From a virus, in the IMG/VR virus record IMGVR_UViG_3300043425_000190, positions 1 through 21,428 of that record: DNA of 21,428 nucleotides. The stretch is one strand, 5' to 3'. A program made the position numbers and the translations under genes. The notes under the pieces are model-generated. The model was not told the origin of the DNA, made no database searches, and saw only the letters and a list, made by a program, of their open reading frames with translations. Below are positions 3,354 to 21,428 of this stretch, in pieces (within the stretch, counting starts at the first letter, position 1; each line of letters starts with the position of its first letter).

Positions 3354-4787
3354 ATGCAAACGCCAATTCTTGGCCAAGCGTATGTTGCCCGCAGTGTTAA
3401 CGCTGCGGATAACCGCATGGTTAACCTGTATCCTGAACCGCTACCCACGCCAGAAGGCAAGACCGGCGGGTTCTTAAACCGCGCGCCAGGCTTGCGTAAG
3501 CTGGCCACTGTGGGCACCGGCCCCATTCGGGGGCTGTGGGCGTACGGCGACTATGGCTACGCCGTATCAGGCGACCGGCTCTATCGTGTCGACTCTACGT
3601 GGAATGTGACACCTATTGGCCCGATTGCCGGCACAGGCCCGGTATCCATGGTTGACAACGGCACGCAGCTGTTTATCGCTACCAACCCTAAAGGCTACAT
3701 CTACGACGCGGCCAGCGAGGGGTTGGCGGAGATTACAGACATCGATTTTCCCGGCGCGGTGACCGTCGGGTATCTGGACGGCTATTTTATTTTTCAGGAA
3801 CCCAACTCCCAGCGATTCTGGACGTCTCAGCTGCTTGACGGCACGCAAATTGATCCGCTGTCGTTTGCCAGCGCTGAGGGTATGCCCGACACGTTGATTT
3901 CGCTTTTTGTGGATCACCGCGAGGTATGGCTGTTTGGCACGCAGTCGGTCGAGGTTTGGTACGACGCTGCCTTGGAAGGCTTTCCGCTCGCGCGTATTCA
4001 GGGTGCAGTCAACGAGTTTGGCTGCGCAGCGACGTTCTCGGTGGCCAAGATGGATAACTCGCTATTTTGGCTGGGTGCTGACCAGCGCGGGCACGGCATT
4101 GTGTTTCGTGCCAACGGCTACGCAGGCCAACGCATTTCGACCCATGCGGTCGAGTACGCCATTCAAAGCTACGACGTCATCTCGGATGCGATCGCGTTCA
4201 CGTACCAGCAGGACGGCCATTCGTTCTACGTGCTGACTTTCCCGTCGGCGCAGGCCACTTGGGTGTACGACGCGGCCACCGGCGCTTGGCATGAGCGGGC
4301 GGGTTTTGCCAACGGGCAGTTTATCCGCCACCGGGCTAATTGCCAGATGTTCTACAGCGAAGAGGTCGTGGTTGGCGACTTTGAGAACGGCAACATCTAC
4401 GCTTACGACTTGGATCAGTATTCTGACGGCGACTTCGCTCAGAAGTGGCTGCGGTCGTGGCGCGCGCTGCCAACCAATACGAACAACTTAAAGCGTACCG
4501 CCCAGCACTCGCTGCAGATCGACATGCAGACCGGCGTGGGCTTAAACACCGGCCAAGGCAGCAACCCGCAAGTCATGTTGCGCTGGTCGGATGACGGCGG
4601 CCATACGTGGTCAAACGAGCATTGGATGTCTGCTGGCAAGATTGGCGCTTACGGCACTCGGGCCATTCGTCGTCGGCTGGGCATGACGATGAAACTGCGT
4701 GATCGTGTTTACGAAATCTCCGGCACAGACCCCGTCAAAATAGCGATTGTCGGTGCCGAACTAGTCTTGTCGGGCACCAATGCCTAG
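3354..4787 (+). CDS. P22 gp10-like tail accessory / packaged-DNA stabilisation protein
   Basis: 477 aa, against 472 in P22 gp10. It opens with QAYVARSVNAADNRMVNLYPE and then FLNRAPGLRKLATVGTGPIRG, the family signature (virion N-terminus followed by a PGL box). Repeated aromatic strand motifs follow (YGYAVSGDRLYRV, NGTQLFIATNPKGYIYD, VWLFGTQSVEVWYD), consistent with a beta-propeller-like fold. Gp10 forms a hexameric ring under gp4 and carries the tail needle and spikes. A poor ribosome site precedes the ATG (AATTTCTAAACT), suggesting translational coupling to gp4-like. The last 8 nt (ATGCCTAG) overlap the fibre gene start. Confidence 0.9.
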   Translation: MQTPILGQAYVARSVNAADNRMVNLYPEPLPTPEGKTGGFLNRAPGLRKLATVGTGPIRGLWAYGDYGYAVSGDRLYRVDSTWNVTPIGPIAGTGPVSMVDNGTQLFIATNPKGYIYDAASEGLAEITDIDFPGAVTVGYLDGYFIFQEPNSQRFWTSQLLDGTQIDPLSFASAEGMPDTLISLFVDHREVWLFGTQSVEVWYDAALEGFPLARIQGAVNEFGCAATFSVAKMDNSLFWLGADQRGHGIVFRANGYAGQRISTHAVEYAIQSYDVISDAIAFTYQQDGHSFYVLTFPSAQATWVYDAATGAWHERAGFANGQFIRHRANCQMFYSEEVVVGDFENGNIYAYDLDQYSDGDFAQKWLRSWRALPTNTNNLKRTAQHSLQIDMQTGVGLNTGQGSNPQVMLRWSDDGGHTWSNEHWMSAGKIGAYGTRAIRRRLGMTMKLRDRVYEISGTDPVKIAIVGAELVLSGTNA

Positions 4788-6972
4788 CGATAACGAACCG
4801 CAAATACCCCGTATCCAATCGCAGATCATCGACGAGCGATCGGGGTTCGTTGCGCGCGATTGGTATCGGTTCTTCCTCAACCTGCTCAACAAAGCTGAAT
4901 CGGGCGGCGGCGGTGGTACGGTCACGTCGGTCAACGTCTCAGGCGGCACGACGGGCCTGTCCGCCACCGGCGGCCCGGTAACGACGTCCGGCACGATCAC
5001 GCTGGGCGGCGCGCTCAATGTCAGCAACGGCGGCACAGGCGCATCAAACGCAACAAACGCCCGCATCAATTTAGGTGCTGCAGCCTCGGGGGCCAACTCG
5101 GACATCACGTCCATGTCGGGTATCACAGGCGGCATATCAACACCTGACTTCATTCAGTTTGATACGTCGGTCACTGTTGGCGATGCCACAGGCCGGTTGT
5201 ATTACGCTAACGACGACCAATTCCAAACGTTGGCGTTCCAGATGAACGGCAACCAGATCCAGCGTATTGGTGAGGAGCTGTACTACCGCGTCAAACTGTC
5301 TGCGAACGCTACCAAAGGCCAAGTGATGATGTTTACTGGCACGCTTGGGTCTAGTGGCGGCTTGACCGCCGCGCCGGCCACTGGGCTGCAGCCGGAGCAA
5401 GCCAACTACATTTTGGGTGTAGCGGTTGAGACAGGCATCACTAACGACTGGGTGTTTGTTACCACGTTTGGTGAAGTCAAAGGTATCAATACAACGGGCG
5501 GCGCAGAGACTTGGGCGCAAGGCGACGTCCTGTACTACAACCCGCTGGTAACTGGCGGCTTGACCAAAGTTAAGCCCACCGCGCCTGCTGCCATCTGCTC
5601 GGTAGCTGCGGTTGTTCATGTGGGTTCGGCTAACGGTGTGCTGTTTGTGCGCCCCACCTATGGCTCAGTGCTGGGCGGCACGGACGGCAACGTCAACTTT
5701 ACCTCCTTGGCTTCCGGCAATACGCTGATTTACGACGCGGTTGCCGGCGTGTGGGAGAACGCCAACCTGACGGACGGCACCGGCATCAGCATCACCGAAG
5801 GCGCGGGGTCGATTACGATTGCCAACAGCGGGGTGACCAGCGCGATCGCCAGCACCGGCATTTCCGTGTCGTCAGCGACCGGCGATGTAACGTTTACCAA
5901 CACCGCGCCCGACCAAATTGTCTCGCTGTCGGCGGGCACAGGCATTAGCACGTCGGGCACGTACCCGAGCTTCACGATCACCAACACCGCGCCAGATCAA
6001 GTAGTGTCGCTGGCGGCTGGCACGGGTATCAACACCACAGGCACCTACCCTAGTTTCACAATAACTAATACCGCGCCTGATCAGGTCGTATCGCTGGCTG
6101 CCGGCACGGGCATCAGCACAACCGGCACGTACCCCAACTTTACGGTTACCAACACGGCGCCTGACCAAGTAGTTTCTTTGGCTGCTGGCACGGGCATGAG
6201 CGTCACTGGCACCTACCCGAGCTTTACCCTGACCAATACGGCGCCTGACCAAGTGGTGTCATTAACCGGGGCGGGCACCACCAGCATTTCGGGCACGTAT
6301 CCGAATTTCACCATCACGTCGAACGACCAGTACGCTGGTACGGTCACCAGCGTCTCCGGCACCGGCACAGTCAACGGCATCAGCTTGTCCGGTACGGTGA
6401 CGTCTAGCGGCAGCCTGACACTGGGCGGCACGCTGACCGGCGTGGATCTGACTAGCCAAGTAACTGGCACGCTGCCAATCGCTAACGGCGGTACAGGCCA
6501 AACGGCCAAAACGGCTGCGTTTGATGCGCTGTCGCCAACCAACGCCAAGGGCGATTTGATTGTCTACGACGGCACCGACAACGTGCGTCTGCCGGTGGGC
6601 ACAGACACCTACGTTTTGACGGCGGACTCCACACAGGCCAGCGGCGTCAAGTGGGCAACGGGCGGCGCCAGCATCAACATTTCCAACGACACAAGCACGT
6701 CGACGAACCTGTATCCGACGTTCGCTGCAGCGACCACCGGCACGATGTCGACCATCTATACCGGCAACGCAAAACTGCTGTACAAACCCAGCACAGGTGA
6801 ATTAACATCCTCGCATGTTGTAGCGTCAAACGGCATTTTTGTTAACAGCTTGACAATCTCTACAAGCTACACCATTCCGTCGGGATCGTCAGGTATGTCA
6901 GCAGGCGTGGTCACGGTGGCAAACGGCGTGGCGGTCACAGTATCCAATGGCTCTCGATGGGTGGTCGTATGA
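4780..6972 (+). CDS. Large repeat-containing tail fibre protein
   Basis: 730 aa, starting at the ATG inside the gp10-like stop overlap. Domains in order: N-terminal anchor, residues 1-45 (PRIQSQIIDERSGFVARDWYRFFLNLL), of a type seen at the start of phage fibres; Gly-rich linker (GGGGG); a strand-rich region with NGGTGASNATNARINLGAA; a globular part at about 120-330 (GEELYYRVK, ETWAQGDVLYYNPL); five 28-residue repeats at about 376-515; a second NGGTGQTA motif; and a C-terminal cap ending TVSNGSRWVVV. It occupies the place of the tail needle gene 26 in the P22 order. It probably forms a trimeric fibre contacting the host surface; the receptor is unknown. The next gene starts in its stop codon (ATGA). 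Confidence 0.85.
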   Translation: MPSDNEPQIPRIQSQIIDERSGFVARDWYRFFLNLLNKAESGGGGGTVTSVNVSGGTTGLSATGGPVTTSGTITLGGALNVSNGGTGASNATNARINLGAAASGANSDITSMSGITGGISTPDFIQFDTSVTVGDATGRLYYANDDQFQTLAFQMNGNQIQRIGEELYYRVKLSANATKGQVMMFTGTLGSSGGLTAAPATGLQPEQANYILGVAVETGITNDWVFVTTFGEVKGINTTGGAETWAQGDVLYYNPLVTGGLTKVKPTAPAAICSVAAVVHVGSANGVLFVRPTYGSVLGGTDGNVNFTSLASGNTLIYDAVAGVWENANLTDGTGISITEGAGSITIANSGVTSAIASTGISVSSATGDVTFTNTAPDQIVSLSAGTGISTSGTYPSFTITNTAPDQVVSLAAGTGINTTGTYPSFTITNTAPDQVVSLAAGTGISTTGTYPNFTVTNTAPDQVVSLAAGTGMSVTGTYPSFTLTNTAPDQVVSLTGAGTTSISGTYPNFTITSNDQYAGTVTSVSGTGTVNGISLSGTVTSSGSLTLGGTLTGVDLTSQVTGTLPIANGGTGQTAKTAAFDALSPTNAKGDLIVYDGTDNVRLPVGTDTYVLTADSTQASGVKWATGGASINISNDTSTSTNLYPTFAAATTGTMSTIYTGNAKLLYKPSTGELTSSHVVASNGIFVNSLTISTSYTIPSGSSGMSAGVVTVANGVAVTVSNGSRWVVV
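5905..6324 (+). repeat. Five tandem 84-bp (28-codon) repeats in the fibre gene
   Basis: Units start at 5905, 5989, 6073, 6157 and 6241, each exactly 84 bp. Each encodes APDQ(I/V)VSL, then a Gly/Thr-rich turn (AGTGIST), then GTYP(S/N)FT(I/V/L)TN. A degenerate unit without APDQ precedes them at about 5830-5904. The units differ at many third codon positions while the protein stays nearly constant. Unit five is the most divergent (LTGAGTTSIS). The repeats likely form successive layers of a beta-rich trimeric shaft. Confidence 0.9.
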
Positions 6973-16622: not shown

Positions 16623-17131
16623 AAGAGAACTTTGACGAGGCGCTAAAGGCAATCCTGAAGCACGAAGGCGGTTTTGTTAACCACCCCAAAGATCCTGGCG
16701 GCATGACAAACTTGGGCGTAACCAAAAAGGTGTGGGAAGCATGGGTCGGACATCCTGTTGGCGAAAAAGAGATGCGCGCGTTGACCCCGGATACAGTGGC
16801 GCCTATGTACAAGAAGAAGTACTGGGATGCGGTCAAGGGCGACGAGCTGCCAACGGGTCTGGACTATCTGATGTTCGACTTTGCGATCAATGCCGGGCCG
16901 GGGCGTGCAGTCAAGACCATGCAGAAAGCGATCGGAACGACGCCTGATGGCGCGATCGGCCCCAAGACCATGGCAGCGTTAAAGGCCGCCGATCCGACGG
17001 ACTTGATCGCTAAGTTCAGTATGGAGAAGGAGCTGTTCTACAAGGCGCTGCCAACGTTTGCAACCTTCGGCAAAGGCTGGCTGCGCCGTGTCGATGAGGC
17101 CAAGTCACATGCGGTGACGATGCTGGCGTAA
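16619..17131 (+). CDS. Endolysin, GH108 muramidase with peptidoglycan-binding domain
   Basis: 170 aa. The catalytic domain shows the GH108 signature: ILKHEGGFV with Glu16 as expected catalytic acid, then DPGGMTNLGVT (25-35), MYKKKYWD (63-70) and DFAINAGP (87-94). A C-terminal peptidoglycan-binding-type part carries the repeat-like DGAIGPKTMAAL (110-121) and FGKGWLRRV (150-158). It cleaves the glycan backbone of the cell wall. There is no signal peptide, so it depends on the holin. Its last 27 nt overlap the 3' end of a convergent minus-strand gene. Confidence 0.93.
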   Translation: MKENFDEALKAILKHEGGFVNHPKDPGGMTNLGVTKKVWEAWVGHPVGEKEMRALTPDTVAPMYKKKYWDAVKGDELPTGLDYLMFDFAINAGPGRAVKTMQKAIGTTPDGAIGPKTMAALKAADPTDLIAKFSMEKELFYKALPTFATFGKGWLRRVDEAKSHAVTMLA

Positions 17132-17296
17132 CTGCCGGCAGACTTCACGGTCGCGCGTCGACATGTCGGGCGAGATCTCGGCCACGCTGCACTGCTCGGG
17201 TGTCGGACGTGGCCGATCGACAGGCACCGCGAACGACAAGAACCCGACAGTGGCCACCACGATGGCCGCGTAGTAGAAGAGAACGATCTCTTTCAT
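17105..17296 (-). CDS. Small single-TM protein (63 aa)
   Basis: Residues 4-24 are a hydrophobic helix (IVLFYYAAIVVATVGFLSFAV), followed by a Pro-rich stretch and a motif with two cysteines (EQCSVAEISPDMS, then REVCRQL), then a His/Arg-rich tail. It is probably membrane-anchored with the Cys-containing tail outside or in the periplasm. The start ATG overlaps the upstream stop (ATGA). It is the last gene of the minus-strand set and runs 27 nt into the endolysin gene. It is not a recognisable spanin. Function unknown. Confidence 0.75.
   Translation of the reverse strand: MKEIVLFYYAAIVVATVGFLSFAVPVDRPRPTPEQCSVAEISPDMSTRDREVCRQLRQHRHRM
17178..17216. repeat. Inverted repeat near the convergent gene junction
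   Basis: TCGGCCACG (17178-17186) and CGTGGCCGA (17208-17216) are perfect 9-bp inverted copies separated by 21 nt. It lies 46 nt after the endolysin stop, inside the minus-strand 63-aa gene. It could fold in transcripts of either strand. No T-run follows, so termination is uncertain. Confidence 0.4.
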
Positions 17297-17475
17297 ACGC
17301 CCAGCAGCCGTCCGAACAACTTCACCACAGGCGACTCCTGCTGCGGCTTGGAGCCCAGCACGATGTCCTGCACAAACCGCTCTTCAGGTGTTGAGTCGCG
17401 CTGATAGAACTGCGGAATGTAATGCGCGCCGATCTTGGGTGGGTCTTCTTTGATAAAGTATCCATCACGTAACAT
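17293..17475 (-). CDS. Hypothetical 60-aa protein
   Basis: The start is preceded by a strong AGGAGGAAAGACG. The protein reads MLRDGYFIKEDPPKIGAHYIP, then QRDSTPEERFVQDIVLGSKPQ and a hydrophobic, basic end (VVKLFGRLLGV). No known domain is recognised. It overlaps the upstream zinc-ribbon gene by 11 nt and the downstream gene by ATGA. The excellent ribosome site, better than those of its neighbours, suggests it is well translated. Confidence 0.7.
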   Translation of the reverse strand: MLRDGYFIKEDPPKIGAHYIPQFYQRDSTPEERFVQDIVLGSKPQQESPVVKLFGRLLGV

Positions 17476-17710
17476 CGTCTTTCCTCCTGTCTTCGTTTGC
17501 GCGGCGGGCGTCGACGCCTTTCTTTTTTATCCACGCCGCCTCGTCCTTAGTATAAATCGATTTGCCCACCGAAACGTTACCTGCTATCCACACCTCAGCT
17601 GAGTAGGCATTGTTCTTGCATGACGGGCACTTGCGTTGCCGCCGGATGCCGCCTGGCTGCTGGGTGGTGTTCACAACGACGGTCTTGCTGCCACAACTCT
17701 GACACTTCAT
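17465..17710 (-). CDS. Zinc-ribbon protein
   Basis: 81 aa from the ATG at 17710, chosen for the ATGA overlap and the AAGGGGGCGAGA before it; a longer in-frame start at 17746 lies inside the previous gene. It has two CxxC knuckles: C3-x2-C6 and C28-x2-C31, separated by TTQQPGGIRRQRK. This resembles the NrdR-type zinc ribbon (C-P-x-C, Arg-rich loop, C-x-x-C). The ATP-cone of NrdR is absent, so it is not NrdR itself. The rest is charged (KKGVDARRANEDRRKDD). It may bind nucleic acid or a host protein. Confidence 0.75.
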   Translation of the reverse strand: MKCQSCGSKTVVVNTTQQPGGIRRQRKCPSCKNNAYSAEVWIAGNVSVGKSIYTKDEAAWIKKKGVDARRANEDRRKDDVT

Positions 17711-17964
17711 TCTCGCCCCCTTGCGCGAATAGCAGCAGCGCACCAAGTAGCCAGCACATCCTCACCTTCATACTCTTTGTCGATGGCCTCGCATAATTCT
17801 GCGCACGCCTCGCGTTCTGCTGCTGCGACTAAAGCGGCAAAGCGTTCAAGTGCTTCCTGATGTATGCCTTCCGGATACTGATTGCCTTCCATCGGTGACG
17901 TCCATACGAACGTGCTTTCGGAGTACCACAGCCCCGCTTTGTGTGCTATCTCGATAATGTTCAT
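17707..17964 (-). CDS. Small phage protein with LERFAALVAAAERE block
   Basis: 85 aa. The N-terminus (MNIIEIAHKAGLWYSEST) and a middle part (GNQYPEGIHQEALERF) lead to an Ala/Glu helix (AALVAAAEREACAELCEAI) and the end WCAAAIRARGRE. The block LERFAALVAAAERE and the ending IRARG recur in the gene at 21106-21426; the 42-nt block differs at 4 positions, all silent. The final codons also provide AAGGGGGC, the ribosome site of the zinc-ribbon gene. The fold is likely a helical hairpin. Such proteins are frequent in phages, function unknown. Confidence 0.78.
   Translation of the reverse strand: MNIIEIAHKAGLWYSESTFVWTSPMEGNQYPEGIHQEALERFAALVAAAEREACAELCEAIDKEYEGEDVLATWCAAAIRARGRE
17809..17850 (-). 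repeat. Shared block LERFAALVAAAERE, copy 1
   Basis: A 42-nt block encoding 14 residues identical to those encoded at 21364-21405. 38 of 42 bases match and all four differences are silent. Confidence 0.85.
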
Positions 17965-18155
17965 GGACGCACCGCCTTTGCCATGATCTCCAGTCGTTCA
18001 CGCGCGTCACGCAGGGCGCAGTAGCGCTGGTGCAGGCGCTGCAGGTGGGAGCTGCGGCGCTCGTTTAGCGTCTCTTCCGTCAGTAGGGCGAACACCTCGT
18101 CTTCCGACAATGACGGCAACTGGTCATTCAGTGCGCGCCAGCTTTGCTTTTTCAT
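17961..18155 (-). CDS. Hypothetical helical protein (64 aa)
   Basis: It starts at the ATG at 18155 (AGAGGATCGAAG before it), giving MKKQSWRALNDQLPSLSEDEV, then TEETLNERRSSHLQRLHQRYCALRDARERLEIM. The second half is a long charged helix with an RRxSHLxRLHQRY pattern that I recall from small phage proteins, unverified. It overlaps the upstream gene by 32 nt, the largest overlap in this set, and the next gene by ATGA. Function unknown; helical pairing with a partner is plausible. Confidence 0.72.
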   Translation of the reverse strand: MKKQSWRALNDQLPSLSEDEVFALLTEETLNERRSSHLQRLHQRYCALRDARERLEIMAKAVRP

Positions 18156-18297
18156 CTTCGATCCTCTGCTCAATCGCTTCAAGTTTGTCGCACGCCCGTG
18201 CCCAGGCACGCGCCATCTGGTTGTAGTCTTTCAAGCGCTGACGCTCTTCTGTCTGCGCGGCTTTGAGTTGCGCCTTCCAGTAGTCAATTCTTTTCAC
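18124..18297 (-). CDS. Hypothetical coiled-coil protein with GTG start (57 aa)
   Basis: No ATG fits between the upstream gene and the coding body. GTG at 18297 is chosen because GGAGG lies 9 nt before it, within the end of the preceding ORF. A longer ATG start at 18348 would lie inside that ORF. The product (KRIDYWKAQLKAAQTEERQRL, then ARACDKLEAIEQRIEDEKAKL) is almost wholly helical and charged, a probable coiled coil. It overlaps the preceding gene by 14 nt. Function unknown. Confidence 0.62.
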   Translation of the reverse strand: MKRIDYWKAQLKAAQTEERQRLKDYNQMARAWARACDKLEAIEQRIEDEKAKLARTE

Positions 18298-18430
18298 GTT
18301 GTTCGGCCTCCAGCTCGCGCAGATCGTTGGCGACGTCTGAGACGCCATGCCAGTCGCTGCGGGCGATCATGACATGCAGGTAGTCAATCAGAATCTCACG
18401 CTGGGTTTCGTACTTGGTAAAGTCAGTCAT
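18284..18430 (-). CDS. Hypothetical 48-aa phage protein
   Basis: A short ORF supported by an ATGA overlap with the preceding signal-peptide gene and by continuous coding sequence. It encodes MTDFTKYETQREILIDYLHV, then ARSDWHGVSDVANDLRELEAEQ and a basic end. The pattern YLxVMxxRxDWHGVSDxANDLRELE is familiar to me from many phage genomes as a conserved small protein, unverified here. Probably a small helical bundle. Its 3' part carries the GGAGG used by the next gene. Confidence 0.75.
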   Translation of the reverse strand: MTDFTKYETQREILIDYLHVMIARSDWHGVSDVANDLRELEAEQREKN

Positions 18431-18705
18431 TTTGCGTCCTCTTTCGGTTTAGTAAATTTGCTCTTCAGTATGATGCGTTTGCTGCCGTCCAACATTTCGA
18501 TATGCACAAAGCCCTGCGACGCGGCCCAGCAGCCGTAGTAGGCACGCTGCAGCCCGTCGATGTCAAAGGCCATCTTCATGCCATGGCACCAGCTGGGCTG
18601 ATCCTGCGTTAAGACCGTCTGCACGCTGATCTCGTTGGTGTACGTCAGGTAATCGGGCTCGGCGGCCAGCGCAGGCGCTGTCAGTAATAAGAGTAGGCAT
18701 CTCAT
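18427..18705 (-). CDS. Exported small protein with signal peptide (92 aa)
   Basis: The ATG at 18705 follows AAAGGAGAAGAACAC and overlaps the previous stop (ATGA). The N-terminus MRCLLLLLTAPALAAEP is a classical signal peptide with probable cleavage after PALA (residue 14). The mature part has two cysteines (C40, C59) that could pair in the periplasm and a basic end (KRIILKSKFTKPKEDAK). It is neither a lipoprotein nor a recognised spanin. A phage protein sent to the periplasm could modify the envelope or exclude other phages; that is speculation. Confidence 0.75.
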   Translation of the reverse strand: MRCLLLLLTAPALAAEPDYLTYTNEISVQTVLTQDQPSWCHGMKMAFDIDGLQRAYYGCWAASQGFVHIEMLDGSKRIILKSKFTKPKEDAK

Positions 18706-19214
18706 GTGTTCTTCTCCTTTAGCTTGGCTTCGATGGCGCGAGCAAATTTTGCGTAGGTATGCCCGCTCGTCCAATCAATGTGGTGCTGTTCTTTCTTAAT
18801 CTCCTCATCCGTCAGCCCCTGCCATTCGCGCTGTGGTGGGGCGGTGTAGAGTGGTACTCCGCAGTCCTTAATGGTCAAAAATGCGTCGCCGTGTTCGTCC
18901 CAATCAACCCACGCCACCGGCTCCGGTTCAGGCTGCGCTTTCACAAGCCGACAAGTCATGTTGTCTATCTGCGTTAAAACACCGAGAGTGTCATCAAGCG
19001 GTTTCCATTCCGGCGAATCTTGCCTGTAATGCTTTTGGTAAATTGCTTCCGCAAGGCGTGATGCGTAGCCATAAGCAGCATCCGGTTCAGGCTGCGCGAT
19101 TCGGGCGCGTAGTAAGTCACGCACTTCTAAAGGTTTTAGTATCGCGCCGTACTCACAAAAGTTTTCAAACGCATCCAGCACCTGCTGCGCTTCCTTTCTG
19201 GTTAGTGTGATCAT
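18702..19214 (-). CDS. Modular phage protein: ITLTR head, PPQRE block (170 aa)
   Basis: The start at 19214 is set by the ATGA overlap. Modules in order: head MITLTRKEAQQVLDAF (1-16), a helical part with RDLLRARIAQPEPDA, a middle region, then PVAWVDWDEHGDAFLTI, the block PLYTAPPQREW, and a C-terminal helix GLTDEEIKKEQ ending AIEAKLKEKNT. The head and PPQRE blocks recur in neighbouring genes. The order PVAW-PLYTAPPQRxW-GLTDEEI is widespread among hypothetical phage proteins in my recollection. Its last codons supply AAAGGAGAAG for the next gene. Function unknown. Confidence 0.8.
   Translation of the reverse strand: MITLTRKEAQQVLDAFENFCEYGAILKPLEVRDLLRARIAQPEPDAAYGYASRLAEAIYQKHYRQDSPEWKPLDDTLGVLTQIDNMTCRLVKAQPEPEPVAWVDWDEHGDAFLTIKDCGVPLYTAPPQREWQGLTDEEIKKEQHHIDWTSGHTYAKFARAIEAKLKEKNT
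18822..18854 (-). repeat. Shared block PLYxAPPQRE, copy 1
   Basis: 33 nt encoding PLYTAPPQREW. Near-identical DNA occurs at 19694-19726 in a different gene (PLYPAPPQRER). Confidence 0.8.
19167..19214 (-). repeat. Shared N-terminal block, copy A
   Basis: Encodes MITLTRKEAQQVLDAF at the gene start. The DNA matches copy C (19877-19927) closely through GATGCGTTT, then similarity ends. Confidence 0.8.
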
Positions 19215-19501
19215 GATGTCACCCCGCAAACTTTTTCCATATAAGCGACATACAGTTCCGCTGCGTTTACAAATTCGCGTAAGTCACCGTCCAAAAAATA
19301 ACGAACCTCGCTATCCTTCCACCCAGAGTAAATGTCGCCGTATCGATTGCGCTTTGTGACGGTTTCTTTTTGAATGCCCAATCTTTCATTACGATACATT
19401 CGTTGTGCGCCCCAATCACCAACTGTTCCGAGCGTGTAAAGAAATTTTGTCGTGCAAAATTCTTCGTAGGTCATTTCCTCGCGGGTTAGTGTGATCGTCA
19501 T
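19211..19501 (-). CDS. Hypothetical protein with grafted ITLTREE head (96 aa)
   Basis: The start at 19501 follows GGAGGAAACCAA and overlaps the previous stop (ATGA). The first nine residues, MTITLTREE, are the head block shared with three other genes. The rest is unrelated to them: MTYEEFCTTKFLYTLGTVGD, then a basic aromatic middle (RYGDIYSGWKDSEVRYFLD) and a helical end. The second Met lies exactly where the head ends, so the body may once have started there. Function unknown. Confidence 0.78.
   Translation of the reverse strand: MTITLTREEMTYEEFCTTKFLYTLGTVGDWGAQRMYRNERLGIQKETVTKRNRYGDIYSGWKDSEVRYFLDGDLREFVNAAELYVAYMEKVCGVTS
19475..19501 (-). repeat. Shared N-terminal block, copy B
   Basis: 27 nt encoding MTITLTREE, fused directly to an unrelated body that begins with its own Met codon. 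Confidence 0.8.
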
Positions 19502-19605
19502 TTGGTTTCCTCCATTGCCCACCGTTTCAGTTGTAGCATCTTGCGTATGTACCAGTTGATCCATTTGTTCTCGTAAATCTTTATCTTGCTCACGTTGTTA
19601 GTCAT
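19498..19605 (-). CDS. Putative 35-aa basic microprotein
   Basis: ATG at 19605 lies in ATGACTAAC, overlapping the previous TAA by 8 nt, and its TGA overlaps the next ATG (ATGA). It exactly fills the only hole left between neighbouring genes. The product is MTNNVSKIKIYENKWINWYI, then RKMLQLKRWAMEETK: basic and tryptophan-rich, possibly amphipathic and membrane-touching. Its ribosome site is weak (AGAAGAACAACA). Existence is supported by packing only. Confidence 0.55.
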   Translation of the reverse strand: MTNNVSKIKIYENKWINWYIRKMLQLKRWAMEETK

Positions 19606-19927
19606 TGTTGTTCTTCTGATTTACGTTCTCGTCCAGCCACGCCTGAACCTCGGTGCCGCTCCACATCTTGCGTAGCATCGTCGGAAACTGCACTCGTTCG
19701 CGTTGTGGTGGGGCGGGGTAGAGTGGTTGACCATTTAGAAGCAACGGCGCATCCATCAACATCACCGATTCCGGTTCAGGTGCGCTAAGTCGGAAGCGGA
19801 GTCTTGAAACAGCAATAGAACATTCATGAAACGCATCGCCGCTCATTGCATCATATGCGCGCTGCCCAATACCAAGAAACGCATCTAGCACCTGCTGCGC
19901 TTCCTCGCGTGTTAGTGTGATGGTCAT
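19598..19927 (-). CDS. Modular phage protein: ITLTREEA head, PPQRE block (109 aa)
   Basis: The start at 19927 overlaps the previous stop (ATGA). The head MTITLTREEAQQVLDAF is followed by a short region (IGQRAYDAMSGDAFHECS), then SRLRFRLSAPEPESVM, LLNGQPLYPAPPQRE, and a C-terminal part WSGTEVQAWLDENVNQK. It shares head and PPQRE block with the gene at 18702-19214 but has different middle and end parts. Its 3' end reads the common junction DNA (AGAAGAACAACAATGA) in another frame, ending NQKNNND. Function unknown. Confidence 0.78.
   Translation of the reverse strand: MTITLTREEAQQVLDAFLGIGQRAYDAMSGDAFHECSIAVSRLRFRLSAPEPESVMLMDAPLLLNGQPLYPAPPQRERVQFPTMLRKMWSGTEVQAWLDENVNQKNNND
19694..19726 (-). 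repeat. Shared block PLYxAPPQRE, copy 2
   Basis: 33 nt encoding PLYPAPPQRER, the counterpart of 18822-18854. Confidence 0.8.
19877..19927 (-). repeat. Shared N-terminal block, copy C
   Basis: 51 nt encoding MTITLTREEAQQVLDAF; the best-preserved full version of the block. Confidence 0.8.
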
Positions 19928-20085
19928 GCCTGCCCCCATTGATATAGCCACCCATCTCTCGTGCTTTGTACCAGCACTGCTTTGCCTTCTTTGAAAGCAC
20001 GAAGAAACTGTTTGCGCTTAGCCTCATGCGTCCACTTGTACCGATGAACAAAGTATTTGCACCCATCAATCGGTTTTAGCTTCAT
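19924..20085 (-). CDS. Hypothetical 53-aa basic protein
   Basis: The ATG at 20085 is preceded by ACAGGAGAACAACA and overlaps the previous stop (ATGA); a longer in-frame start at 20187 lies within the upstream gene. It encodes MKLKPIDGCKYFVHRYKWTH, then EAKRKQFLRAFKEGKAVLVQS and DGWLYQWGQA. The strongly basic middle and aromatic end suggest a small folded domain that could bind nucleic acid. No family is recognised. Confidence 0.7.
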   Translation of the reverse strand: MKLKPIDGCKYFVHRYKWTHEAKRKQFLRAFKEGKAVLVQSTRDGWLYQWGQA

Positions 20086-20105
20086 TGTTGTTCTCCTGTA
20101 GCTTT
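20082..20105 (-). repeat. Junction block KATGEQQ-stop / ribosome site, copy 1
   Basis: Encodes KATGEQQ and TGA. The same bases include AGGAGAA, the ribosome site of the next gene, and its ATG. Identical 24-nt sequence occurs at 20406-20429. Confidence 0.85.
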
Positions 20106-20261
20106 GGCTAATGCGGCGCGGAGGATTTCTATTTCCTTGTTCCAACCATGACCTAAATGACCGGGTTGATAATTTTGCTGAACACATCCAGCGGCATCTG
20201 CTAACGCATACAAAACATCAGCCGCTTCCTCGCGGGTTAGTGTGATGGTGTTGTTAGTCAT
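20082..20261 (-). CDS. Modular phage protein: ITLTREEA head, KATGEQQ tail (59 aa)
   Basis: ATG at 20261 overlaps the previous TAA by 8 nt (ATGACTAA); its TGA overlaps the next ATG. It encodes MTNNTITLTREEAADVLYAL, then ADAAGCVQQNYQPGHLGHGW and a helix NKEIEILRAALAKATGEQQ. The head is the common ITLTREEA block with four extra residues in front, and the end is the common KATGEQQ block. It is thus made almost entirely of shared ends with a unique 30-residue centre. Confidence 0.75.
   Translation of the reverse strand: MTNNTITLTREEAADVLYALADAAGCVQQNYQPGHLGHGWNKEIEILRAALAKATGEQQ
20223..20249 (-). repeat. Shared N-terminal block, copy D
   Basis: 27 nt encoding TITLTREEA, internal by four codons relative to its gene start (MTNN precedes it). 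Confidence 0.75.
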
Positions 20262-20409
20262 CAGAGTCTTCCTCGTATTCCGACCAGTGTTTTACTTCAA
20301 CTGCGGTTGGATAAAGTCTTAGCGCATCATCAGATGTAACGCCGTAGGCTTTCACCCACTCATAGGTGACGATTGGAATCTTTACGTAAAAGGTTGTGTC
20401 TGCGCTCAT
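20254..20409 (-). CDS. Hypothetical 51-aa protein
   Basis: ATG at 20409 overlaps the previous TGA (ATGA) and follows ACAGGAGAACAACA. It encodes MSADTTFYVKIPIVTYEWVK, then AYGVTSDDALRLYPTAVEVK and an acidic end (HWSEYEEDSDD). The alternating strand pattern suggests a small beta domain; the acidic tail is typical of DNA-mimic or inhibitor-type small phage proteins, but no specific match is claimed. The stop TAA lies inside the next gene's start region (ATGACTAA). Confidence 0.72.
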   Translation of the reverse strand: MSADTTFYVKIPIVTYEWVKAYGVTSDDALRLYPTAVEVKHWSEYEEDSDD

Positions 20410-20429
20410 TGTTGTTCTCCTGTAGCTTT
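20406..20429 (-). repeat. Junction block KATGEQQ-stop / ribosome site, copy 2
   Basis: 24 nt identical to 20082-20105. It ends the zinc-finger gene and provides the ribosome site and start of the 51-aa gene. Confidence 0.85.
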
Positions 20430-20609
20430 GACTTTAGCTTTATGCTTATCGTTAAAATGCTGAGTCATTGATCTTTCTTGTTCAAATTTTTTTCCACACT
20501 TTGAGCATTTATGTTTTTTAAGTACCGACTTTTCATACATTGATCCGGGATCAAATCCGTAAGTACCCATTATTTCTTTGCGAAAGTAATCATCTGCATA
20601 CTCACCCAT
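20406..20609 (-). CDS. C2H2 zinc-finger protein (67 aa)
   Basis: ATG at 20609 follows AGGAGAACAAA. After MGEYADDYFRKEIMGTYGFD comes a finger: C35-x2-C38-x12-H51-x4-H56, with FEQERSMTQH forming the expected helix. The finger is close to the classical C2H2 pattern, with hydrophobic residues F42 and M48 at core positions. Basic residues flank it (KKHKCSKCGKK, HKAKVKA), suiting nucleic-acid binding. The end is the KATGEQQ block. The gene is notably A+T-rich (about 27% GC over 20461-20520). A role in transcription or DNA handling is inferred from the finger. Confidence 0.8.
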   Translation of the reverse strand: MGEYADDYFRKEIMGTYGFDPGSMYEKSVLKKHKCSKCGKKFEQERSMTQHFNDKHKAKVKATGEQQ

Positions 20610-20628
20610 TTTGTTCTCCTGTAGCTTT
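20602..20628 (-). repeat. Junction block KATGEQ-stop / ribosome site, copy 3 (variant)
   Basis: Matches copies 1 and 2 through GAACAA, then diverges, so the peptide ends KATGEQNG and the next gene starts ATGGGTGA. Confidence 0.8.
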
Positions 20629-20841
20629 GGCTAATGCTTGTTTTGCGCGGCTTTGATATTCGTAATCCATCGCGTTAACAGTCGCTACCCACTCCAACGC
20701 CTCCACCAACTCAGCATTCACCTCATGCAAGCGGCGTAGTTCGGCGGCGGCTTGGTCAAGTTGCGCGGAAATACTTCCGGTTTGAAAACCTTGTTCAAGG
20801 CCATCAGCCAGCCGCAGGGCTTCGGGTTGTTTGTCAGTCAT
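20602..20841 (-). CDS. Small helical phage protein (79 aa) ending KATGEQ
   Basis: The start at 20841 follows GGAGGTGATGCC and overlaps the previous stop (ATGA). It encodes MTDKQPEALRLADGLEQGFQ, then QLDQAAAELRRLHEVNAELV, EALEWVATVNAMDY and RAKQALAKATGEQNG. The pattern LRLADxLE followed by AAxELRRLHxxNxELxEAL is familiar from many phage hypothetical proteins and predicts a two-helix coiled coil. The end is a variant of the KATGEQ block, overlapping the next ATG by 8 nt. Function unknown. Confidence 0.78.
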   Translation of the reverse strand: MTDKQPEALRLADGLEQGFQTGSISAQLDQAAAELRRLHEVNAELVEALEWVATVNAMDYEYQSRAKQALAKATGEQNG

Positions 20842-21020
20842 GGCATCACCTCCCATAGCTTCATAAACACACCGATATTCAACAACGCAAAACCGATAGC
20901 CATCATCCACAAGCCAGCCTTATCAAACCGGTTCCACATACTTCGTGATTCATAAGGCGCACCAAATTCACGAACCAATACCCAACCTATTACGCACATT
21001 AAAAGTCCAATAGCAGTCAT
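20838..21020 (-). CDS. Two-TM membrane protein (60 aa)
   Basis: The start at 21020 follows GGAAGGGGTTGCC and overlaps the previous stop (ATGA); longer in-frame starts lie inside the upstream ORFs. Two hydrophobic helices (2-17, AIGLLMCVIGWVLV; 36-54, GLWMMAIGFALLNIGVF) flank a charged loop (REFGAPYESRSMWNRFDK). Probably an inner-membrane hairpin. Holin or antiholin is possible by form, but it is far from the lysis genes. Function unknown. Confidence 0.75.
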   Translation of the reverse strand: MTAIGLLMCVIGWVLVREFGAPYESRSMWNRFDKAGLWMMAIGFALLNIGVFMKLWEVMP

Positions 21021-21109
21021 GGCAACCCCTTCCAAATAATAAAGACCAACCAGCCCACTGCGTTGATGCCATAAAGCCACGCCCCAAAAAGAAGCCACTT
21101 ATCAGTCAT
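21017..21109 (-). CDS. 30-aa membrane microprotein
   Basis: ATG at 21109 and stop at 21017 each form ATGA overlaps with neighbours, and AAGGGGGCAATC precedes the start. The product MTDKWLLFGAWLYGINAVGW plus LVFIIWKGLP is a single hydrophobic helix. Its last codons provide GGAAGGGGTT for the next gene. Existence is supported by overlaps on both sides and a ribosome site; without it there would be an 85-nt gap in an otherwise gapless set. Confidence 0.65.
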   Translation of the reverse strand: MTDKWLLFGAWLYGINAVGWLVFIIWKGLP

Positions 21110-21426
21110 GATTGCCCCCTTGCGCGGATAGCTTCTGCCAGCGTTTCAACAGCAGCCAGTTCATAGAACTCCTGCAATTGAGCGTGTTCGTCTGCTTGCT
21201 CATCACACACTTTCGCACACGCCTCACGCTCAGTTTGCACACCATTCATCAACGCACGATTCCATCCATCAGCGATCTGCCAGTCCAACTCAGCCAGCAA
21301 GTCTTCAATCGTATCGCCGTGGCCTGTCGCGTAGCTGCGCTGGATCATCCATTGCGCTACCTTCTCGCGCTCTGCTGCTGCGACTAGGGCGGCGAAGCGT
21401 TCAAGTTCTACTGGCTTACTAATCCA
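21106..21426 (-). CDS. Phage protein with LERFAALVAAAERE and IRARG blocks (5' end outside window)
   Basis: The frame stays open to the right edge, so the start is outside; the ATG at 21348 is internal. Visible order: PVELERFAALVAAAEREKVAQ, then WMIQRSYATGHGDTIEDLLA, DGWNRALMNGVQ, a second TEREACAKVCDEQADEH motif, and the end AVETLAEAIRARGQS. It shares its first block and its end with the gene at 17707-17964. The ER-E-ACAxVC motif occurs in many phage small proteins in my recollection. The last codons supply AAGGGGGC for the microprotein start. Function unknown. Confidence 0.75.
   Translation of the reverse strand, partial: WISKPVELERFAALVAAAEREKVAQWMIQRSYATGHGDTIEDLLAELDWQIADGWNRALMNGVQTEREACAKVCDEQADEHAQLQEFYELAAVETLAEAIRARGQS
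21364..21405 (-). repeat. Shared block LERFAALVAAAERE, copy 2
   Basis: 42 nt, 38 of 42 bases equal to 17809-17850, with identical translation. Confidence 0.85.
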
Positions 21427-21428
21427 CA

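Follow-up and report, generated by a model that had tools for sequence, protein, structure and literature searches.

A C-terminal peptide shared by unrelated small phage proteins probably reflects a DNA joint carrying the ribosome site and start of the next gene

Analysis of a 21,428-nucleotide (nt) phage fragment (IMG/VR virus record IMGVR_UViG_3300043425_000190, hereafter the window) uncovered a minus-strand run of very small genes, from 21.4 kb to about 17.7 kb, with every stop overlapping the start that follows; a boundary block, AAAGCTACAGGAGAACAACAATGA, terminates two of these genes as KATGEQQ followed by a stop codon. This block very probably serves as a gene joint that provides the ribosome site and the start of the next gene and at which genes are swapped, the shared peptide being a by-product. 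The block is common by descent among many phages of an environmental group, where it is attached to unrelated upstream genes, its DNA design is retained while the peptide varies, and it marks the edge of whole-gene exchange, gain or loss, both upstream and downstream.

The original prediction, made from the letters of the window alone, had reported 24 identical bases at 20082-20105 and 20406-20429. The repeat is real and its exact identity covers 25 bases (to 20106 and 20430), the chance expectation for a 24-base repeat in 21.4 kb being about 1e-6 (n^2/2 / 4^24). The variant listed at 20602-20628 is equally genuine, with 27 bases identical to the first copy (20088-20114 = 20611-20637), and diverges only past GAACAA, where the next gene begins with ATGGGTGA rather than ATGA and the tail becomes KATGEQNG; locus L013 shows the same tail and start. 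The relative at 19602-19619, said to be read in a different frame, also holds up: TCAGAAGAACAACAATGA equals CAGGAGAACAACAATGA but for one mismatch, and the ATG of a 35-amino acid (aa) open reading frame (ORF; 19498-19605) follows. Phase-1 tails of the QENNND/KEKNNG type are present at other loci, and an exact match to the phase-shifted copy CAGAAGAACAACAATGAC was recovered from one 119-kb contig. The spacing had to be corrected: AGGAGAA or AGAAGAA, placed 5-8 nt before the next ATG, actually ends 4-5 nt before it, with 6-7 nt between the AGGAG core and the ATG in the window.

When 2.9 million viral contigs were scanned for KATGEQQ plus TRR in every synonymous spelling, 60 sites came up; the window holds two of these, and one is a non-stop chance match. 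All 59 genuine ends carry a TGA overlapping an ATG (55) or a GTG (4), and none uses TAA or TAG. An exact 18-mer search with no stop requirement yielded 53 C-terminal copies, each with an ATG at 13-14 nt, counted from the first base of the ACAGGAG stretch, and with tails reading KATGEQQ, KATGEQR, KATGEQS, KATGEQNG, or KATGEQ then TAATG; three additional matches lie inside other genes. A degenerate IAKATGEQ scan, again with no stop requirement, gave at least 129 C-terminal sites, a lower bound; among the matches listed, 123 of 129 have a start at the fixed place, and the position behind GEQ is unconstrained, with A in 34, Q in 30, S in 21, P in 20, E in 5, R in 4 and further residues besides. 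The expectation that an ATG would always follow at a fixed distance is thus borne out across the three scans, with the six departures confined to the last. At ATGA joints the codon after GEQ always ends in A, followed by TGA. The glycine codon in 123 non-redundant sites is GGA in 112, GGG in 10, GGC in 1 and GGT in 0, whereas in the flanking genes GGA accounts for 294 of 1462 glycine codons (Fisher p 1.9e-58).

Relatives of the 79-aa protein that ends at the 20602 variant were gathered by their N-terminal two thirds only, and 79 have a readable end. Only 26 of them end in ATGEQ, with other tails including KGEAK, KGEKT, KEKNT, KEKNNG, KEKNHG, KATGENNG, QGDNNG and AKEQA, while in 77 a Shine-Dalgarno core precedes the start that follows, and in 60 an ATG stands at the exact ATGA offset. 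Across all loci, AGGAGAA at gene ends occurs in all three codon phases (ATGE, KEKN, RR), and an ATG ORF follows in 246 of 363 cases, as compared with 29/189, 86/379 and 36/150 after permuted 7-mers. The neighbouring gene's start dictates the last residues of the upstream protein: ATGA leaves one free residue and the stop, ATGGGTGA gives NG, and ATGGCTAA gives NNG. Together these results support the conclusion that conservation tracks nucleotides rather than residues, and that the shared ending reflects a DNA joint. Synonymous codons and alternative tails agree with the earlier proposal that the ending is kept because the ribosome site is, and that proposal stands for the Shine-Dalgarno part; KAT lies upstream of it, and there the identity reflects shared descent of the block.

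The genes on both sides of the block differ widely. Once the tail is removed, the proteins upstream fall into a large linked group (RLHEVNAELVEAL / AAPELLEAL modules) plus 16 small groups, with an HNH-like and a lipoprotein-like protein represented among the latter. Downstream there are 75 protein families, and 21 of the 24 block-following families with at least three members have other boundaries in other contigs, as anticipated by the suggestion that different genes would follow in different genomes. Within the window, the 67-aa and 79-aa proteins share the tail and are otherwise unrelated; the 53-aa gene also stands behind the block in L009 and L055, after different upstream genes, and relatives of the 92-aa gene in L029 and L030 stand behind KATGEQQ. 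Among the 123 non-redundant sites, pairs share the downstream gene only in 50 cases, the upstream gene only in 18, and both in 4. In pairs with a common downstream gene, identity persists across the block and drops to background near position -21, and in those with a common upstream gene it reaches background at +4 relative to the start. A search for cassette loop-outs in the exchange pairs found only two gene gains or losses, and in each the block borders just one side. The clean one, L081 versus L091, involves a single 224-bp ORF that fits exactly between the block ATG and the ATGA that follows, and the flanking spans are 94% and 96% identical; the other, L031/L035, has 74% and 38% flank identity over the same spans. 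In a blind ranking of 16-mers by the variety of their neighbours to left and right, the block came first, with 35 contexts on its left and 28 on its right. A joint of the same kind is present in the isolate genome of Bordetella genomosp. 4 (L073). The idea that the block offers recombination homology at gene boundaries, allowing whole genes to be swapped, therefore stands in so far as whole-gene swaps have block edges; exchange is not limited to boundaries, and homologous recombination at the block may be the route.

The joint combines the upstream 3′ end, the Shine-Dalgarno sequence AGGAGA, a 7-nt spacer, and a next start that holds the upstream stop (ATGA). AGGAG 6-7 nt ahead of an ATG with an overlapping TGA is a standard arrangement for translational coupling. 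Judging from the sequence, ribosomes finishing the upstream gene would start the next one via the block, and a gene arriving at the joint would be expressed at once and in register. The approximately 20-25 bp of shared sequence would let annealing recombinases (RecT, Erf, Sak4) or RecA align two genomes, and the block may thus be a preferred crossover point. Annealase genes were predicted in 11 of 21 long contigs (RecT in 4, ERF in 4, AAA_24 over the cut-off in 3), and about half of the long contigs searched therefore appear to encode annealases of the RecT, Erf or Sak4 types. Rad52-like phage recombinases exchange DNA between diverged phages, and a minimum of about 30 bp of homology is quoted for Red-beta (PMC3945230), which puts a 24-bp block alone at the edge.

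Several observations weigh against the block as a coupling joint and exchange point. An ending retained with no downstream overlapping gene, which the original prediction held would contradict it, was encountered in one lineage of six near-identical contigs (L084, L095, L103, L107, L136 and L170), where IAKATGEQS ends in TAA, the joint reads TCATAA and no gene start follows for about 130 nt. This lineage still has GGAG, and folding its downstream sequence for a terminator gave no significant structure. L136 resembles the other five in its 3′ part and downstream side and differs in its N-terminal part. In L089, ACTGGCGAG (glycine as GGC, no GGAG) precedes an otherwise normal ATGA joint. The blind search also returned several homology islands inside genes, showing that exchange is not confined to boundaries, and the loci were found via the block or the family, with frequencies that differ from those of phages at large. 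Finally, the last helix of the large upstream family commonly ends AIAKATGE, so the ending is partly native, as would suit a peptide kept for protein function (C-terminal tag, docking motif or helix cap) with the ribosome site incidental. That explanation is very unlikely given that synonymous codons are fixed to the ribosome site, that the last residue varies although the third base of its codon does not, that family members with very different tails retain the ribosome site, and that the tail is present on unrelated proteins. A bacterial genome scan, useful chiefly as a control, returned a single real prophage joint among matches that were mostly internal or due to chance, and the five chance-like KATGEQQ ORF ends found in bacterial genomes lack an overlapping gene and are written largely in other codons, which again speaks against a function of the peptide.

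Ordinary convergence, in which compact operons need a Shine-Dalgarno sequence before overlapping starts and no mobile block exists, would fit the presence of some ribosome site inside the upstream gene, with many different tails, at most boundaries of these contigs, and phase-shifted copies such as that at 19602 may indeed be convergent. As a general account it is improbable: in 45 of the 59 sites the identical 24-mer continues past the ribosome site by another 8 bases on its upstream side (AAAGCTAC), and it sits on unrelated genes; gene exchanges end at block edges; and no other 16-mer has so varied a set of contexts to its left and right. Harder to set aside is a shared block combined with illegitimate recombination anywhere, after which only products with an intact joint survive and homology plays no part. 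This is the favoured general model of phage mosaicism (PMC3029335, PMC3974807), and the same 21 of 24 downstream families also stand behind block-less boundaries. Block alleles do match well above background in both kinds of pair (synonymous-site match at position -15 of 0.88 and 0.89 versus 0.32), as recombination between partners with a common block would predict, but shared ancestry gives the same pattern: phages of one gene pool would share the block allele anyway, so these pairs fit either mode of exchange alike and cannot separate them, a further point against the block as the site of homologous exchange. We regard illegitimate exchange as a serious possibility, if somewhat doubtful. An assembly artefact, with unrelated genes joined through a short repeat, would be in keeping with the near-identical repeat and with nearly all loci being metagenome contigs, and is nevertheless extremely improbable. 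Three copies are resolved within the window, mismatched junctions turn up repeatedly in samples that are independent of one another, older exchanges have divergent block alleles, and the Bordetella joint comes from an isolate genome. A repeat of 20-25 bases is also shorter than the k-mers usual for closing contigs.

Short sequences at the boundaries of exchanged phage modules are an idea that reportedly goes back to Susskind and Botstein in 1978 and to Clark et al. in 2001 (HK620). Conserved boundary sequences have been proposed as homologous-recombination joints (PMC3029335, PMC6466182) and are described as unidentifiable at most phage joints (PMC3029335). As in that proposal, the same short sequence stands here between different neighbours and flank homology stops at it; compared through the citing text, the present joint differs in having 75 downstream families and in also carrying a translation start. 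The excerpt on genes 67/68 of mycobacteriophage Island3 describes a repeat of about 50 bp at their 3′ ends and related last 18 residues (PMC3029335), likewise C-terminal residues shared via DNA-level recombination at a gene end, but as a single case for which that excerpt proposes no ribosome-site role.

The lambdoid nin region has overlapping ATGA stop/start joints (PMC8022706, citing Kroger and Hobom 1982 and Cheng et al. 1995). The small-gene run resembles it in its tightly packed small genes, with the TGA stop within the next ATG and a Shine-Dalgarno sequence at working distance in the upstream coding sequence; unlike in the nin region, one extended block is common to many phages and unrelated neighbours, with a visible peptide consequence. 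The start-associated sequences (SAS), repeats of cluster K mycobacteriophages, contain AGGAG, lie a few bases before starts, mainly ATG, and precede different gene families in non-structural regions, as the block does (PMC3203893). However, block GCTACAGGAGAACAACA shares little beyond AGGAG with their 13-bp consensus GGGATAGGAGCCC, and SAS are not described as upstream coding tails and often have extra inverted repeats (ESAS), unlike the block (PMC3203893). The kind is thus known, from ATGA coupling and phage boundary sequences, and the present case is unusually well sampled; what is new is a single coding tail that is also ribosome site and start, common to many phages and dozens of families.

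Other recurrent elements accompany the block. The blind 16-mer search identified a second block, GGAGAAGAACACATGA (KEKNT and stop; 27 left and 27 right contexts), and at KEKNT-type loci the NT/NNG/NHG tails are again set by the next gene's start. Yet another ending, AIRARGxx (CGCGCAAGGGGGC..ATGA), recurs as well and closes window genes ending at 17707 and 21106 on the minus strand, and the fetched loci hold 37 boundaries of this IRARG type. A start module, MTITLTREEAQQVLDA, lies on the minus strand at 19191-19217, 19475-19501, 19901-19927 and 20226-20252; its first codons are conserved at the DNA level, the proteins differ afterwards, and 43 non-redundant genes in the fetched loci begin with it. 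Homology islands within genes (QPEALRLAD, PQREW, GLTDEE, EPVAW, RLHEV) suggest Lego-like proteins in these phages.

The blocks and small genes of the window are listed in Table 1. Structural-type genes occupy the left part of the window on the plus strand, and in the small-gene run every boundary overlaps, as ATGA, ATGACTAA or ATGGGTGA. No promoter-like site and no minus-strand terminator-like site was found in 17000-21428, which is compatible with one long operon but proves nothing. Pfam and PHROGs searches gave weak matches only. Searches against INPHARED phage records, by BLASTN with the small-gene run and by tblastn with the 79-aa protein and the KATGEQQ C-terminus, found no usable relative, leaving no cultured, annotated phage for comparison. 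Elsewhere in the window, a 485-aa antisense open frame on the minus strand (535-1992), opposite a coat-protein-like gene (382-1593), looks like a codon-bias shadow and not a gene, and 84-bp repeat units (APDQVVSLAAGTGI..GTYPSFTITNT) lie at 5896-6315 within a long fibre-like protein (4780-6972).

Table 1 Boundary blocks and small genes in the window
Feature	Position	Strand	Remarks
Boundary block AAAGCTACAGGAGAACAACAATGA	20082..20106	minus	
Boundary block AAAGCTACAGGAGAACAACAATGA	20406..20430	minus	Shine-Dalgarno AGGAG, 7 nt, ATG; TGA stop within ATGA
Boundary block, variant ...AAAGCTACAGGAGAACAA + ATGGGTGA	20602..20628	minus	
Related boundary TCAGAAGAACAACAATGA	19602..19619	minus	other codon phase (NQKNNND, stop); one mismatch in 17-base core
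Second boundary block AAAGGAGAAGAACACATGA	18702..18720	minus	KEKNT, stop; same design, another codon phase
79-aa gene MTDKQPEALRLAD...RRLHEVNAELVEALEW...ALAKATGEQNG	20602..20841	minus	family with last helix often ending ..AIAKATGEQ
67-aa small C2H2-zinc-finger-like protein, end VKATGEQQ	20406..20609	minus	sub-threshold Pfam match
51-aa gene MSADTTFYVKIPIVTYEW...	20254..20409	minus	start inside block
59-aa gene MTNNTITLTREEAADVL...LAKATGEQQ	20082..20261	minus	N-terminus is the shared start module, C-terminus the block
53-aa gene MKLKPIDGCKYFVHRYKWTHEAKRKQF...	19924..20085	minus	start inside block
109-aa gene MTITLTREEAQQVLDAF...LDENVNQKNNND	19598..19927	minus	
35-aa ORF MTNNVSKIKIYENKWINWYIRKML...	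19498..19605	minus	start in 19602 boundary; overlaps next start (ATGA)
92-aa gene MRCLLLLLTAPALAAEPDYLTYTNEIS...	18427..18705	minus	behind KEKNT in the window

A stronger view, that the block is a dedicated universal connector of the phage gene pool, kept partly for homologous exchange of working genes, seems to us rather unlikely; if it were true, the C-terminal residues of many unrelated proteins would be by-products of an exchange system. Whether phage mosaic joints originate from boundary homology or from random exchange plus selection is an old question, most joints having no sequence in common; the block makes it testable by supplying dozens of natural joints whose allele is known on either side. 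For annotators and builders of protein families, a perfectly conserved C-terminal peptide may be the footprint of the next gene's start codon and ribosome site.
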